Source of the DNA: Pyramidobacter sp. C12-8
GTDB taxonomy: Bacteria; Synergistota; Synergistia; Synergistales; Dethiosulfovibrionaceae
DNA: 64,000 bases
NCBI RefSeq assembly: GCF_002007215.1
Contig: NZ_MUHX01000003.1
Span: forward strand, 1 to 64,000
Direction: 5' to 3'
Positions within the stretch are counted from its first letter, which is position 1; each line of letters opens with the position of its first letter. The position numbers were made by a program, and so were the translations under genes. Of the stretch, positions 34,072-41,674 are shown in pieces. The notes under the pieces were generated by a model. The model saw only the letters and a program-made list of their open reading frames with translations, did not search any database and was not told where the DNA came from.

Positions 34072-34478
34072 GACATTTTCCCCCTTATTAATGTGATAAA
34101 ATTCACATATTTTGTGACTAAAATCACAATACATCGCGAACGAGAATTTGTCAACAGGAAATATGGCGAAGTTTTGTTTTCCCGATGCATTTCCCGCGGC
34201 GAAGGCGCGAAAAAAAAGAGGCTATCTCGATTTGGTGAACACCAATAAGGAAGTATCAAAATCATACTAACTTAACGGCTGACAAACAGGGTTGCTAAAA
34301 GAACCGGCGTGTTATTTCGCAATGAAATGGCACACCGGTTCCTTTTCTTTTTAGTCTGCTCAAAGAATTTATTTTAAAACACAACCACTCGAAATTTGGC
34401 GGATTTACGACTCGAGTATAAAGGTGTAAAATAATAGTGACTATAACTTTGATTTTCTGCAAAAAGGAGATGGTAATA
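34072..34478. other. AT-rich gap at the left edge of the island
   Basis: Base composition drops sharply here. It holds the alcohol dehydrogenase promoter region on the minus strand, a terminator-like hairpin (34301-34350) and the leader of the helicase gene. I see no gene and no clear attachment-site repeat. Confidence 0.5.
34301..34350 (+). terminator. Hairpin before the island helicase
   Basis: Arms GAACCGGCGTG and CACACCGGTTC (one G-U pair), an inner ATTTC/GAAAT stem, then a T-rich stretch on the plus strand and AAAA before it. It insulates the helicase from upstream transcription. Confidence 0.7.
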
Positions 34479-37199
34479 TTGCTAAGAATTGACAAAGCTA
34501 TTTTGGACACAAGTGGCGTGATTTGTGACAACATTGCACGTTTTGGCGCAACCGAGCGGGGTCTTTTGAGTCAAAACATACTGGGTCATATTCGCAATTT
34601 TGTAGAATATGTAGCTATCAAGGCATTTTCTAATGGCGCTGATGTTAATCCTAATGATTATAATCTCAATGTTGCCGCCCTAAAAGATATGCAACGTCAT
34701 GGAAATTTGCGTTTTTTATATAGATTTCATGAGCTACTCCAGAAGTCTGTGTCGCACTACACTGTAGACAAAGATGGCTCCGAGCGGCTTATGCTCAAAT
34801 ATTATGAACATCTACTTAAAACAAAACTCTATCTTAAACAGGCATACAATCTTGACGTGCTAGAGAATATAGAAGATTTTCCTTTGGACACTGATACCGA
34901 ACTATCCGATTATTACACGAAAATCGCAGAGAGAATTGAGACACCAAGCAGATTTAGTTATGCTGTAACATACAACGATCGCTATTATGTTCAGAAAATT
35001 AAACCTTTCTTTATAAATCAAAGAATATACTATGAGGTTACATTTACTGCAGCAACGGCTAATACCAGTAAGTTTGATCGAGTAATTGCTTTTACTAGTC
35101 ACGAAATCATGGACAACTATGCTATAAAGTTTTCAATTCATAATGATACAATTCATATTCTGGACAAGGATATGTCTATCCTAATAATAGATGAGTATGA
35201 AGTATCTATTCGCCCGTGTGAATGGGATAACCTTTCTGAAATCTTTGGGCCACGCGTGGAACATAGCACCAACTCTATTGAATATAGAGAGCTGATGAGA
35301 TTTCTCTCAACTGTTAAAATGCCTCTGACAGAGCTTGTAAGTAGCGACCAAGATTATTACAATTTTATAAAAAGTCATATCACTTCACAAGCTAAGTCGA
35401 TCAAAATATATGAACTTCTAGATCAGTGTCGAGAAGTGATTGTGAACGGCAAAGCTGGCTCAAACGTATTGCGTTATTTGTTATATAAAATGAATAATCG
35501 TGTTATCAAATGGCAGTACTGGAATAAGCAGTGCGGAGGCTTATCAAATCTTTATCTAAATTATGGTTGTATGCCTTTTGATCGTATGCCTTATTGCACT
35601 TCTCTTCGTCAGCATAACCCGAGAATATATGATCTATTTAACTCAATTCCCGTTTCTGGCCATGAGCACGAACTATTTGCTCGATATATTAAGAATAATA
35701 CAGAAATAGAAGGAAAACTATTCACTCCTAAAACCGAGATTGAAAGGTTTGAGAACATCGATGATTTGATTAGGCAATATAATGCAGCCCTTTACTATAA
35801 GCATACCGGACGTAGACTAGAAGAATACAAAGGCCATATTTATATTAAAGAATATGCTGAGGATAGTGCTGAAATAATTAAAAAACTGCAACAACTCTCT
35901 TCTTCTGGTGTTACTCAATATATGGCATCTATTGACTCATGGCTCTCTCGAGAGTCATACAGTATTGATGACGATGGCAAAAAACATGCACTTCGCCAAA
36001 TGTTTGAAAAATCACATGTTGCATTAGTTTATGGTTCTGCTGGGACAGGCAAATCTACCCTAATTAATCATATAGCTAATTTTTGGGGAGAAAAGGATAA
36101 GCTCTTTTTGGCGAACACTCATCCCGCTGTGGATAATATGAGGAGAAAAGTAACTGCGGGTAACAGCGAATATAATACCATTGCCAAGTTTTTATCAAAG
36201 AGAAATCTCAATACCGAGTGTGATATACTATTTATCGATGAGTGTAGCACCGTAAGCAACAACGACATGAGACAAGTACTTGAAAAGGCCAACTTCAAGC
36301 TCCTAGTCTTAGTAGGTGATGTGTATCAGATAGAATCAATTTACTTTGGAAATTGGTTTAGCATTGCGCGAAAGTTTGTACCTGCAACTTCTGTGTTTGA
36401 ATTAACGTATCCCTACAGAACCACTAATCAAGATTTGCTAACCGTGTGGGATCGCGTACGCAAACTTGATGATGCGATTTTAGAACCATTAGTGAAAAAC
36501 GGCTACGTCGCTAGACTTGATGAATCCATTTTTGAACATAGCAATGATGATGAAATTATTCTCTGTTTAAATTACGATGGACTCTATGGAATTAATAATA
36601 TTAACCGCTTTTTACAGAACAGCAATCCCAACGAAGGAATTGTATGGGGAATCAACACATATAAGATTGGCGATCCCGTCCTGTTTAATGAATCAAATAT
36701 TTTTTCCCCATTGATTCATAACAACACAAAAGGTAGAATTGCTGGGATTCATCCAGAAAAACAACAAATCTGGTTTGATATTGAGCTTGAGGAATCAATA
36801 AACGAGATAGATGCGTGGGACTACGACTTTGAACTCATTGGAGAGTCTGAATCTGGAAATTCTATTATCTCATTCAGCGTTAATAAGTTTCGAAGTACTG
36901 ACGAAGACGATGACAATAATAACTCTACAGTTGTACCATTTCAAGTAGCGTATGCTGTATCTATTCACAAGGCTCAAGGTTTAGAGTACGACTCTGTAAA
37001 AATCGTTATCACAAATGAAGTAGAAGAACGCATCACCCATAATATCTTTTATACGGCAATCACCCGCGCAAAGAATAAATTGAAAATATATTGGAGCCCA
37101 GAGACAGAGAAATCTGTCCTTGAGCATCTTGAAGTTAAAAACTCGAATAAAGATGCTCATTTGTTAGCGCAACTATTTTCAATCGCAATGACTAATTAA
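34479..37199 (+). CDS. Solitary SF1 (Pif1/RecD/UvrD-like) helicase with an uncharacterised N-terminal half
   Basis: About 906 residues, markedly AT-rich against its GC-rich surroundings. The C-terminal half is an SF1 helicase: Walker A YGSAGTGKST (about 517-526), the DE box FIDECSTVSN (about 585), a VGDVYQIES motif III, TYPYRTT motif IV and the late SIHKAQGLEYDSV (about 828) with FYTAITRAK, as in UvrD_C_2 proteins. The first about 500 residues match nothing I recognise. I use the TTG at 34479, nine bases after AAGGAG. It stands alone between two hairpins and next to a decayed conjugative element, a context typical of phage-defence or element-maintenance cargo. Function is inferred, not known. 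Confidence 0.8.
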   Translation: MLRIDKAILDTSGVICDNIARFGATERGLLSQNILGHIRNFVEYVAIKAFSNGADVNPNDYNLNVAALKDMQRHGNLRFLYRFHELLQKSVSHYTVDKDGSERLMLKYYEHLLKTKLYLKQAYNLDVLENIEDFPLDTDTELSDYYTKIAERIETPSRFSYAVTYNDRYYVQKIKPFFINQRIYYEVTFTAATANTSKFDRVIAFTSHEIMDNYAIKFSIHNDTIHILDKDMSILIIDEYEVSIRPCEWDNLSEIFGPRVEHSTNSIEYRELMRFLSTVKMPLTELVSSDQDYYNFIKSHITSQAKSIKIYELLDQCREVIVNGKAGSNVLRYLLYKMNNRVIKWQYWNKQCGGLSNLYLNYGCMPFDRMPYCTSLRQHNPRIYDLFNSIPVSGHEHELFARYIKNNTEIEGKLFTPKTEIERFENIDDLIRQYNAALYYKHTGRRLEEYKGHIYIKEYAEDSAEIIKKLQQLSSSGVTQYMASIDSWLSRESYSIDDDGKKHALRQMFEKSHVALVYGSAGTGKSTLINHIANFWGEKDKLFLANTHPAVDNMRRKVTAGNSEYNTIAKFLSKRNLNTECDILFIDECSTVSNNDMRQVLEKANFKLLVLVGDVYQIESIYFGNWFSIARKFVPATSVFELTYPYRTTNQDLLTVWDRVRKLDDAILEPLVKNGYVARLDESIFEHSNDDEIILCLNYDGLYGINNINRFLQNSNPNEGIVWGINTYKIGDPVLFNESNIFSPLIHNNTKGRIAGIHPEKQQIWFDIELEESINEIDAWDYDFELIGESESGNSIISFSVNKFRSTDEDDDNNNSTVVPFQVAYAVSIHKAQGLEYDSVKIVITNEVEERITHNIFYTAITRAKNKLKIYWSPETEKSVLEHLEVKNSNKDAHLLAQLFSIAMTN

Positions 37200-37479
37200 A
37201 AATTTAGCTACCAGTAACGCACAGCAAGTTTCTACGCGTTTCAAACTGCATTTACAGGGAGAAGAGTGGTATGATGCTTTCAGCAGTCCAAATAAGCCGA
37301 AAAACCTAGTAGTATCGGGCTATTTTACCTGCTAAATGCGTAGGCACAAACGTCATAATAGCAGCGGGCGCAAGCGGATTTCTGCTTACACCCGCTTGGT
37401 TACCATACAGCAAAGACGGAGGAAGCCTTCAAGGGCGCGGAGTGTTCATCTCGACCCTTGACGGCTTCCTTTGACTTTG
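37200..37479. other. Gap between helicase and conjugative-element remnant
   Basis: No gene. It contains two hairpins: a GU-rich stem near 37365-37400 (GCGGGCGCAAGC/GCTTACACCCGC) and the terminator at 37421-37469. Base composition changes here from the AT-rich helicase to the moderate GC of the element. Confidence 0.5.
37421..37469 (-). terminator. Terminator after the HTH gene of the element remnant
   Basis: 15-base arms with one mismatch (37421-37435 and 37455-37469), 10 bases beyond the minus-strand HTH gene. T-runs are modest. Confidence 0.65.
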
Positions 37480-37716
37480 CTATTTCTTGACTACAATGGC
37501 TTGCGCCAATTTCGCCTGTAAGCGGTGCTTCATATACTCGTCGATGCCGACATACGGCAAACCGTCTTTGTCATAGAGTGTTCGCGTGCAAATCTTGTTG
37601 ATATAGCGGTCGTAATACAGCAAAATACGCTCCAATGCCAACGGGCTACCGGCGCGGGCCGCTTCGATCACGTCCATGGGCAAAAGCACTCTGCCGTTAA
37701 AAGTTGGTTGTTTCAT
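37480..37716 (-). CDS. Helix-turn-helix protein of Tn916/CTn type
   Basis: 78 residues. The AARAGSPLALERILLYYDRYINKICTR region is the small helix-turn-helix domain found just upstream of the regulatory/excision genes of many Firmicutes conjugative transposons (always beside a small sigma factor, as here). AAAGGAG precedes the ATG. The sigma-like gene ends two bases upstream, so they form one transcript. Confidence 0.8.
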   Translation of the reverse strand: MKQPTFNGRVLLPMDVIEAARAGSPLALERILLYYDRYINKICTRTLYDKDGLPYVGIDEYMKHRLQAKLAQAIVVKK

Positions 37717-37717
37717 A

Positions 37718-38146
37718 TTAGTTCTTCACTCCTTTGGATTTCAAATTTCTTCGCAGTTCGTTCAGTGTCTTTGTTCTATGCCGCTGGACGGCGCTGCGGG
37801 ACATTCCCACAAGACCGCCGATCTCACCGTCTGCCAGCTCCAACACACAATACAGGATCAAAATTCTTTGCTCCTGTTCCGGCAGGCTTGCAAAGGCATC
37901 AGCCACCAGCTCGTCCCGGATATGCAGAGCGTAGCCGTATGCCGTGAACAGGATGCTGTCACTTGGGTATTTGTCCACCGTGCAGAGCTTGTCCATTTCA
38001 TGTTGGGACAAGGCGCTGAACTCGGTTTCCCGGTTCCGCTGGCAAGCCAAATCCCGCAGGTGGTTTCTGGCCTCGTTGCGGAGGACAGTTTTGCAGAAAG
38101 CGTCAAACCGGCAGCGTTTTCCATAATCATTAGGGATATATTTCAT
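37718..38146 (-). CDS. Sigma-70-like regulator of conjugative element
   Basis: 142 residues with region-4-like HTH at the C-terminus (SLPEQEQRILILYCVLELADGEIGGLVGMSRSAVQRHRTKTL, split by the GL-GMSRSAV turn). The N-terminal FCKTVLRNEARNHLRDLA matches the short sigma factors of Tn916-like and related integrative elements. GGGGGTGAG precedes the ATG. It probably controlled element genes; with the recombinase broken it is a relic. Confidence 0.82.
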   Translation of the reverse strand: MKYIPNDYGKRCRFDAFCKTVLRNEARNHLRDLACQRNRETEFSALSQHEMDKLCTVDKYPSDSILFTAYGYALHIRDELVADAFASLPEQEQRILILYCVLELADGEIGGLVGMSRSAVQRHRTKTLNELRRNLKSKGVKN

Positions 38147-38604
38147 CTTCTCACCCCCGATCTGCGGGAGAGTGAAAAGTTAGAGTTGGTGCCACCACCC
38201 CTTGTGTCTATGTTGATACGGCAGTTTCGGCCCGCACCGAAAGACCGCAATAACAGATCCGTAAAAGTAAATGTAATATGTCGGTAACTTACATCGTATA
38301 GTACATCTTTTAACCCAAACCGCTCCCACGCTGAGAACAGGCTTTTTTTGAGAAGCTATGGGGTTGGAAAACAGACTGTATCAGCATGGTGGTTTCCTCC
38401 GTAAGCCGTCGATTCTGCATAGAGTAAACAAAGCAAAAGCGGCAGTCTTGATTTCTCAAAACCACCGCTGGGATATGAAATAGAGCGCACAAAATCAACC
38501 TGCCCAACAACGGTTTTTTTCTTCCCCCGTCGGGCGGGGCAAATTGTATCATGTATTAAGGAACAGAAAAAGCCGATAACTACAAGAAGAAATACTCTTG
38601 CAAG
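38147..38604. other. 458-base gap inside the element remnant
   Basis: It holds promoter sequence for the sigma-like gene and the terminator of the PadR-YjdF-KTR operon at its right end. Short frames here lack ribosome binding sites and recognisable sequence. Genes for excision and transfer that would be expected between these parts in an intact element are missing. Confidence 0.5.
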
Positions 38605-38613
38605 TTATCGGCT
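38567..38613 (-). terminator. Terminator of the PadR-YjdF-KTR operon
   Basis: AGCCGATAACT-type arms around a loop, followed on the minus strand by TTTTTC. It overlaps the end of the KTR gene. Confidence 0.8.
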
Positions 38614-38790
38614 CTGCGTCTTAGCGTCTGGCTCTTGGATGATGGATAGATTCAGTTGTCTTACCGCTATCAAGGTTTCATGTTTGCATTTCGGGCAATA
38701 CAGTGGGAAGTTTTCTAGCACTGTATCATCGCGGATTTTCAATCGCGTTTTGCTGTCGCAAAAGGGACATAAAATCCATTCTATTTTCAT
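38605..38790 (-). CDS. Cysteine-rich KTR protein
   Basis: 61 residues. CPFCDSKTRLKIRDDT and CPKCKHET give two CxxC pairs, and the KTR after the first pair is the name-giving motif of this small zinc-ribbon family carried by Firmicutes conjugative elements. It starts one base after the YjdF stop. Function unknown. Confidence 0.85.
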   Translation of the reverse strand: MKIEWILCPFCDSKTRLKIRDDTVLENFPLYCPKCKHETLIAVRQLNLSIIQEPDAKTQSR

Positions 38791-38791
38791 G

Positions 38792-39214
38792 TTATCTTCC
38801 TCTGTGCTTGGCTTTCTTCTTTTCCTGCCGTATGGCAAACTGGCGGTCTTTCTCCGCCTCTTTCTGCTCACGGCTCTTGGTTTTCCGTTCCAGCTTACAT
38901 TGCTCATGCTGGAATTTCAACGCCTGCTGCGCCTTTGTTCCAATGCCTTTATCCTGCAGTTGGCTTTGAATTTCGCGCTGCATACGTTTGGGATTGATTT
39001 TTCGCTCTATGGCTATCTCGGTCTGGATTGGAGGACTGAATTTCAGCTTGTGCCAATTCTTCAACAGAAACTCATAGACCTCATAATCTTTGGGTTCTGA
39101 GCCAAAAGTGATTTTGCATACCTCGTACTTACCGTTATCCGTTCTTTCGTATAGACCGATCCAAAACGGAGCCTCGAACAGGATGGTCAAACTGCTTTGG
39201 GGGCCTGTACTCAT
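38792..39214 (-). CDS. yjdF: YjdF-family protein (DUF2992)
   Basis: 140 residues. The N-terminal FEAPFWIGLYER, then YEVCKITFGSEPKDYEVYEFLL and the highly charged C-terminal helix (KRMQREIQ...KKKAKHRGR) match YjdF. The family is widespread in Firmicutes, sometimes under a riboswitch for aza-aromatic compounds; I see no such riboswitch here. Its ATG overlaps the PadR stop (ATGA), so it is coupled to the padR-like gene. Confidence 0.85.
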   Translation of the reverse strand: MSTGPQSSLTILFEAPFWIGLYERTDNGKYEVCKITFGSEPKDYEVYEFLLKNWHKLKFSPPIQTEIAIERKINPKRMQREIQSQLQDKGIGTKAQQALKFQHEQCKLERKTKSREQKEAEKDRQFAIRQEKKKAKHRGR

Positions 39215-39735
39215 TCTTCTAAGAACTGCCCTTCAAAGTGATCCAGCCATTCCAAAAGAGTGCGATAGAGAAGCTGCTGCTGCTCAAAAATCGTTCTCCC
39301 AACCAAGGGAATGTCTGTAAATTCCCGCGCATAGCCCTCGTTCGATTCAGCCGAGGACTGTATGCTCTGGCGCAACACCGAAACCAGCTCCAACGCTTCG
39401 GCCTTGTCCATCTTATTCAGATTGGTAATGACCACATTGAAATCGAATAACAGGGGTACCGTGCTAGCGGCGCAAGAGGCCATCAGCTCCTTGAAATACG
39501 CTCTGCCCTGATCAGTAATAGAATAAATGGCCTTATCCGCAAACTTATCGCCCTTGACAATATCGCTTTGGAGATACCCCTTCTCGCTCAACTGGAGTAC
39601 TTTTCGATAAATAGAAGGCACGCTTATTTTCGTCCAGCGAGAAAAATGGTGGTACTCCACATCCTTTTGAATGTCATAGGCGCTTTGCGGTTTCTCCAAT
39701 ACAATACCAAGTATGACTCAATCGATTGACGACAT
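39211..39735 (-). pseudogene. PadR-family regulator with an early stop codon
   Basis: The body (VILGIVLEKPQSAYDIQKDV onward, winged helix, then a C-terminal helical dimerisation part) is a normal PadR-like repressor. But the frame from the natural ATG (39735) reads MSSID and then hits TGA at 39718-39720 before VILG. Translation could restart at TTG (39699), losing the first helix of the winged-helix domain. The stop lies in the palindrome TCAATCGATTGA at the junction with the recombinase gene. It is most likely inactivated, though readthrough cannot be excluded. Confidence 0.75.
39718..39729. repeat. 12-base palindrome at the PadR/recombinase junction
   Basis: TCAATCGATTGA reads the same on both strands and puts a TGA in frame at the start of both divergent genes. 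It could be the scar of a recombination or repair event. Confidence 0.6.
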
Positions 39736-41350
39736 AATGATACCTCTTTATACGCCCGTCTGTCCCAAGAGGACGCGCTGGACGGCGAGAGCAATAGCAT
39801 AGCCAATCAAAAGAAAATCCTTTTGAAGTACGCAACCGACAACGGTTTCCCAAATCCCACGTTTTTCATCGACGACGGCGTTTCCGGGGTGACGTTTGAC
39901 CGTCCGAGATGGAATGAGATGATCCGGCTGGTCGAAGCAGGAAAGGTTAAAACCGTCATTGTCAAGGATATGTCCCGCATGGGTCGCGACTATCTAAAAG
40001 TGGGCTACTATACCGAGAGCTTCTTTGCTGAGCGTGATATTCGGTATATCGCTATCAATGACGGCGTGGACAGCGACAAAGGGGACAATGATTTCACCCC
40101 TTTCCGTAACCTGTTCAACGACTTCTACGCCCGCGATACCAGCAAGAAGATTCGGGCTGTTATGCGAGCCAAAGGAAACGCCGGGGAACACCTCTGCACC
40201 AATCCGCCCTATGGGTATCAGAAAGACCCGATCGATAAAAAGAAATGGATTGTGGACGAGGAAGCCGCCGAGATCGTGAAGCGGATCTTCGTCCTGTGCA
40301 TTGCGGGGAAAGGCCCCATGCAGATTGCCAAGTTGTTGACCGCCCAACACGTCCTGACCGTCAAGGCCCACTACGCCCAGCGGGACGGAAAGCCGCTGCC
40401 GGAGAAGCCTTACAAGTGGAGCCCGAAGTCTGTTGCTGGGATATTGGAGCGGCCAGAGTACACCGGCTGCACGGTGAACTTCAAGACCTATTCCAAGTCC
40501 CACAAGCTGAAAAAGCGACTGCACAATGCCCCAGAGAACCAGCGGATTTTCCCCAATACCCAGCCCGCCATTATCGAAGAACAAGTCTTTGCACGGGTAC
40601 AGGAGTTGCGGGGGAACAAGCGCCGTCCGGCCAAGCAAGCCGAACGGCAAGGGCTGTTTTCTAGGCTGCTGTACTGCGCCGACTGTGGAAGCAAACTGCA
40701 TTTTGCCACAGGCAAAAACATGACACCGCAGCAAGACTGCTATCGGTGTTCCCGGTATAAGAGTCATGCACTTTATCCGGGAAGAAACGTTGAAGCTGTT
40801 CGTGTTGCAGCGGATTTTCGATGTGACGGCGCTGTTCTTTGACGATGCCATGGCATTTGAGGAAGCGGCGAGAAAGCAGCGTTTCCAAGAAGCGGAGAAG
40901 GAGGCCAAGAAGCGCAGGCGTGAAATCGCCCAAGCGGAAAAGCGCATTGCCGAACTTGACCGGATTTTCAAGCGCATCTATGAGGACGACATCAGCATCA
41001 GCGGTACGGTCAGCCATGAACGGTTCTTGAAACTCTCTGCCGACTATGAAGCAGAGCAAAAAGAACTAACAGAACAGGTCAAGACATGGCGGCAAGCGGT
41101 AGAAACCTTTGAACAAGATCAAGCCGATTTCGCTAGCTTTGCAGCCATTGTGCGGAAGTATGTAGGCATCCGAGACCTTACGCCCACCATCGTCAATGAG
41201 TTTGTAAAAAAGATTATCGTCCATGCGCCGGATAAGTCCAGCGGCCACCGCAGGCAGAAGATTGAACTGGTCTGGAACTTTATCGGAGAAGTCAACCTGC
41301 CGGGTGACGATCAGACTGTGGAACTGCAAAGAAAAGGCAGGACGGCATGA
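39730..41350 (+). pseudogene. Large serine recombinase (TnpX/TndX type), broken
   Basis: The resolvase domain begins with SLYARLSQED, whose Ser (codon at 39763) is the catalytic residue, and DMSRMGRDYL carries the active-site arginine region. A recombinase domain follows, then a zinc ribbon and a coiled-coil tail ending in the usual KIELVWNFIGEVNLP. Two lesions are seen: no start codon in frame upstream of the catalytic Ser (TGA at 39727-39729 instead), and a frame change near 40766, where codons between RCSRYKS and MHFIREE, including second zinc-ribbon residues, are lost. The tail continues in another frame to 41350. The element can probably no longer move itself. Confidence 0.88.
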
Positions 41351-41674
41351 CTTTTCAGCCATACCGTCCTGCGACAATTTAATTACTTCCTTATGGGCCG
41401 ACACCTTTGACTTTTGAGACGGCCTCTTTTTGAAAGCACTTCAGAGCAACGGTCGAGAGAGTTCTGAGCAACTGAACTCCTTCGCAGCGCCCAGCAAACT
41501 CTGGTGATACTTTCTATCAAGAATCAGTCTCATACTGTTGAGATACTGTCTCTTGACCAAAATATTGACACTGGTTTTCAATTTGGAACATCATTGAAGG
41601 TATCGTACCTCGCGCAGTCGCGCCAGTCGTGCCGCAAAAAACATGCGACACGCGATTTCATGCAGCTTTTGATG
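41351..41674. other. Gene-free gap at the right edge of the island
   Basis: It contains a 17-base sequence (41407-41423) that is also at 8344-8360, forming here part of a small GGCCG/CGGCC hairpin with a T-run. The rest shows no gene. The right junction of the island probably lies here. Confidence 0.45.
41407..41423 (+). repeat. 17-base repeat shared with 8344-8360
   Basis: TTGACTTTTGAGACGGC is identical at both places and T-rich sequence follows in both. Flanking similarity continues in patches (CTGAGC-AACT-like sequence nearby). Possibly a common terminator type or the trace of a shared insertion. Confidence 0.5.

Follow-up and report, generated by a model that had tools for sequence, protein, structure and literature searches.

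Phage-defence candidates (PDCs) are families proposed by 'guilt by embedding', and most of them are untested (PMC12988326; PMC10855318); two other PDC candidates that have been assayed showed no activity in that one host (PMC12409345). One such candidate is PDC-S53 of PADLOC-DB v2 (model PDLC05035), for which a literature search returned no paper naming the family and no experimental test. Several known groups resemble it in part. RecD2 and RecD, SF1B helicases, have the same motor fold and motifs. The PHROG 325 Dda-like phage helicases are relatives over the full length. GajB and other UvrD-like defence helicases, e.g., in Gabija, likewise place an SF1 motor in a defence system, yet the motor of GajB is of the SF1A type and is paired with an OLD nuclease. 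On the side of the vehicle, Tn7-like transposons are mobile and carry variable cargo that includes defence genes (PMC8649781). A search of the literature on serine-recombinase elements with defence cargo found nothing directly on the element described here.

The window, i.e., the whole stretch of 64,000 nucleotides of Pyramidobacter sp. C12-8 that was analysed, carries a real and intact gene of PDC-S53, an already listed candidate antiviral family. The ORF reading gives an open frame at 34437-37199 (+) of 920 codons. Its best start is the TTG at 34479, with the ribosome-binding site AGGAG nine bases upstream and in agreement with the starts of homologues, for a protein of 906 residues, the length that follows from the coordinates in the preliminary description. 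The PADLOC match reaches 1333 bits and covers frame residues 17-913 of 920 on positions 3-893 of 900 of the model; the window protein has the same size and domain order as the family and is no different in sequence, its one distinction being that a serine-recombinase element carries it as cargo, in place of an embedding restriction operon. The preliminary description had singled the gene out as an undescribed system, which is wrong given this membership. The same description rightly saw the gene as AT-rich and foreign by composition (GC 0.37 versus ~0.60 in the flanks and ~60% in the genome), and as standing between hairpins, one at 34301-34350 (z = -4.0) and hairpin-like repeats downstream at about 37363-37482. 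The candidate promoter-like site ahead of the gene is kept in the upstream regions of L002 and L003. Considered with its neighbourhoods and its vehicle (Table 1), the gene probably encodes a single-gene PDC-S53 defence helicase, brought into this genome by a serine-recombinase element of Firmicutes type in which it is swappable cargo.

Table 1. Features of the helicase gene and of the element that carries it (window coordinates).
Feature	Position	Strand	Basis
Entire mobile element as integrated, about 7.2 kb	34231..41408	.	G001 flanks contiguous; second-genome copy; terminal inverted repeats
Left end of element, TTTGGTGAACACCAATAAGGAAGTA	34231..34255	+	Common to L161, L162, L181, L182, L183; repeated in inverse orientation at the right end
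Terminator-like hairpin with T-run, left border of cargo slot	34301..34351	+	Fold z = -4.0
Promoter-like site (TTTACG, 17 bases, TAAAAT)	34402..34431	+	Sequence reading
PDC-S53 helicase, cargo gene	34479..37199	+	ORF; PADLOC full-length match; AF2 model; dN/dS
N-terminal helical bundle, residues 3-154	34485..34940	+	AF2, Foldseek, alignment
Small beta barrel, OB-like, residues 161-242	34959..35204	+	AF2; weak repeated OB-fold matches
SF1B RecD/RecD2-type motor, residues ~485-906	35931..37196	+	Pfam, Foldseek
Right border of cargo slot (TTTCTACGCGTTTCAAACTGCATTT...)	37229..37260	+	Joined directly to left side in L162, L181
HTH_16 protein, element backbone	37480..37716	-	Pfam PF12645 6.4e-17
Sigma-70 region 4-like protein, element backbone	37718..38146	-	Pfam PF08281/PF04545
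DUF2992 protein	38792..39214	-	Pfam PF11208 5.4e-55
PadR-like regulator	39211..39699	-	Pfam PF03551 2.1e-6
Large serine recombinase, frameshifted near 40740	39727..41350	+	Pfam Resolvase, Recombinase, Zn ribbon, DUF4368
Right end, inverted copy of left end	41383..41405	-	Inverted-repeat comparison

The preliminary description of a standard SF1 motor joined to an unrecognised half holds for the motor and, as far as Pfam goes, for the rest: the only Pfam domains are those of the SF1 motor, which begin at about residue 470, and none lies N-terminal of it. Since the protein belongs over its full length to PDC-S53 and to PHROG 325 (270 bits), the N-terminal half is not undescribed; neither does it fall in a known housekeeping family. 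The motor motifs GSAGTGKS, DECS, GDVYQIES, SIHKAQGLE and YTAITRA are conserved in alignments of 16-28 homologues. An AlphaFold2 model built on a 28-sequence alignment (pLDDT 83.8, pTM 0.81) lays the protein out as helices at 3-154, a small beta barrel at 161-242, helices to about residue 480 and then the motor; its best solved-structure matches in Foldseek are RecD (5ld2_D) and RecD2 (3gpl_A), at E about 1e-17 to 1e-16. Residues 1-245 modelled alone reach pLDDT 85.3 and have no PDB match below E 0.001, the helical bundle being without a PDB match. Many top matches of this fragment are OB-fold DNA-binding proteins (RPA70N, SSB, Rim1, LEF-3 and PriB), at E 0.08-0.8 over about 90-105 columns, none of them significant; LEF-3 also appears among its matches in viral models. 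These matches hint at an OB-like domain at residues 161-242. A nuclease or HEPN fold, which the preliminary description had suggested looking for, was not found in the window protein: the alignment has neither a nuclease motif nor the conserved Rx4-6H motif of HEPN ribonucleases, and Foldseek matches neither fold. Against two relatives at 91-92% identity dN/dS is 0.05-0.06, about equal in the N-terminal half and the motor, which means that constraint acts on the entire protein.

The homologues do not belong to the core genome, and many lie in defence islands, a point that the preliminary description had proposed to check: beside or within type I restriction operons and with Gabija, Septu, Avs4 and SEFIR genes. 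At least 6 of 21 loci (L047, L083, L087-L090) adjoin type I restriction genes; in L047 the homologue and HsdS overlap by about ten bases, and in L083 it follows HsdS by ~23 bases. Elsewhere the neighbours are GajA and a GajB-like gene with Avs4 (L074), PtuA/PtuB (L087), bSEFIR (L090), type IV restriction (L076) and methylases (L048, L084, L086), the GajB-like name in L074 and the methylase names in L048 and L086 being sequence readings and not separate profile results. Among 114 nearest neighbours, 344 PADLOC families were matched at 1e-20, families that overlap heavily and do not amount to a gene count; 112 neighbours at 20 RecD2 control loci, mostly from another phylum, matched one PADLOC family, with three members. 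No evident defence gene lies near the homologue in L049, L079, L081 and L082, and by its ORFs and Pfam domains the window copy is alone in its element and not embedded in a defence system. The type I restriction neighbours and the HsdS junctions would suit an accessory subunit of type I restriction that processes restricted DNA or counters anti-restriction and has little effect alone. Such a role is unlikely, because other copies, that of the window included, stand alone or with Gabija, Septu or Avs4, and because lone copies are under strong purifying selection.

The borders of the vehicle come from comparison with a sister species, G001, in which the positions matching 34228 and 41414 are contiguous with no insert between them, and the insertion site lies within a terminator-like hairpin. 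The gene, which the preliminary description had set at the edge of a mobile-element remnant, is thus inside a 7.2-kb insert, where it is the first gene after the left end. An assembly artefact or contamination was rejected, since a second genome of the species, assembled in 2 contigs, has the same insert with 3 base differences in 7.25 kb. The ends form an imperfect inverted repeat (GGTGNNNNCCNATAAGGAAGTA). A GA, considered as a candidate crossover dinucleotide, stands at both ends here, but sister elements differ in the bases that precede their left end. The recombinase inside the insert has the Resolvase, Recombinase and zinc-ribbon domains of the TnpX/TndX type; given its frameshift, which the second genome shares, it is probably inactive. 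The machinery of this small element is unrelated to that of the Tn7-like transposons, and its slot by the left end takes one or two genes. A stretch of ~7 kb beside the site in G001, considered as a rival defence insert, holds ordinary metabolic genes instead. At the split hairpin (window 34211-34230 / 41409-41435), the loop that is AAAAGTC in G001 reads GACTTTT in the window, as if flipped.

The slot became visible when Firmicutes were searched with the backbone and the left end, a survey that yielded a small sample of six elements with both sides. Five of the loci (L161, L162, L181, L182 and L183) have the left end of the window element together with its HTH_16/sigma backbone. In L162 (1165-2519) and L181 (3703-5128) the slot is empty, 34340 being joined to 37229 at the same junction. 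It holds a 661-residue GHKL ATPase with weak similarity to defence profiles in L161 (8379-12088), an HTH gene with an 847-residue HSDR_N-methylase-specificity fusion (294 bits to a PADLOC methylase) in L182 (4968-9298), and a 310-residue TIR-like effector (52.8 bits) in L183 (854-3361). Sister elements have hairpins of other sequence at the place matching the left hairpin of the window. As sister elements with the same borders have the slot empty or filled with other genes of defence type, the helicase is swappable cargo. That the helicase serves the element itself, in replication, excision or transfer, is quite unlikely: it is the element's first gene, and helicases of its class occur in conjugative relaxases (the TraA/TraI profiles match it weakly), yet sister elements do without it or carry unrelated genes, most homologues sit in restriction islands and not in an element of this type, and the element has no relaxase or replication gene among its ORFs (ORF list and Pfam). 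The preliminary description had offered single-gene defence and element maintenance together; context, i.e., the islands of homologues and the slot, supports the first well, and the second is disfavoured because sister elements exist without the helicase gene.

The family is patchily spread, with near-identical copies across phyla. The host phylum, presumably Synergistota, is small, and 188 of its genomes were searched; the helicase was not found in the rest of the genomes sampled from the genus and the family, and a copy in another genome of the same order is only 54% identical. By contrast, a contig of Flavonifractor plautii ATCC 29863 matches the helicase's C-terminal half together with the backbone (35663-39662) at 93% DNA identity, and the gene also occurs, with 91-92% protein identity, in bins of Mediterraneibacter and Merdimonas. 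From these near-identical copies, together with the absence from the sampled genus and family, it follows that the gene was acquired by transfer from or through Firmicutes, where the family occurs in ~3% of the genomes of two orders (13 of 392 and 12 of 394). Among viral contigs, a single-sequence query found no match to the helicase and an alignment query found 28 loci; two phages and 27 viral contigs carry the family. In phages and prophages the helicase is often preceded by a conserved partner gene, which the window copy lacks; the partners are 278-464 residues long (L093:7137-7973, L094:7137-7973, L106:4580-5971, L109:5134-5970), are 37-44% identical between loci and resemble the LmuA profile at the N-terminus (50 bits). 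These phage copies and the full-length PHROG 325 match could mark a replication or recombination helicase of phages, Dda-like, that hitch-hikes in bacteria with no defence role. This is very unlikely: phages with the gene are rare (3 of 50,697 records), both annotated phages transcribe it and one small partner against the neighbouring replication genes, in the manner of accessory genes, and several viral-contig copies adjoin restriction genes (L100, L104). That the protein is a RecD2 paralogue which repairs DNA for the host is hardly credible: the motor resembles RecD2 in sequence and in the model, but the N-terminal half and the defence context differ, the RecD2 equivalog scores 117 bits against a cut-off of 500, the gene is foreign in composition, and its distribution is the patchy one just described. 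For the same reasons of score and absence a housekeeping RecD2 or RecD was rejected, the RecD model likewise falling far below its own cut-off; similarity to GajB is weak and local only.

If PDC-S53 is indeed an immune family, RecD-type enzymes and the long form of the family suggest how it might work. A long subfamily of 1050-1180 residues (L079, L081, L086, L087, L089, L090) begins with an additional domain, DUF4365, in which a VQIKGT motif is conserved. Long relatives score close to the Pfam cut-off for this domain (24.1 and 23.1 versus 24.3 bits), and the window protein lacks it in Pfam. DUF4365 has been described as a Mrr-type PD-(D/E)XK nuclease domain (PMC6299218), and its presence in the long form suggests the purpose of the motor. 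The window protein is most likely a DNA-tracking defence helicase. It would load on invading DNA, probably on the single-stranded tails of forks that arise in phage replication or recombination, with the OB-like and helical N-terminal domains binding the tails. The RecD-type motor would then travel 5' to 3' along the DNA, and its action would dismantle phage intermediates or feed DNA to a nuclease. In the long subfamily DUF4365 would itself be that nuclease; for the short form, as here, it could come from neighbouring restriction enzymes or from host exonucleases.

The most interesting addition is the cargo slot. The analysis links a candidate family to a mobile element whose slot can be seen both empty and with several alternative loads, and the matched backbones with and without the helicase gene offer a natural comparison. 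The slot could also be used for finding other defence genes. It is possible, though doubtful, that this is a compact serine-recombinase element of gut bacteria with a dedicated defence slot, and PDC-S53 a new stand-alone immune helicase made of an OB/helical sensor and a RecD-type motor, which blocks phages with no nuclease of its own; if so, the left-end slot would take up a single defence gene, or a small set, each time. A further locus, L187 (1372-3307), has a GmrSD protein (HEC-06 profile, 236 bits) after a similar left end, its right side not being shared; this protein lies on the border of another element, apparently a conjugative one. Finally, about 1 kb at L188:1177-2205 is flanked by sequences resembling parts of both element ends, and might be a small non-autonomous derivative of the element.
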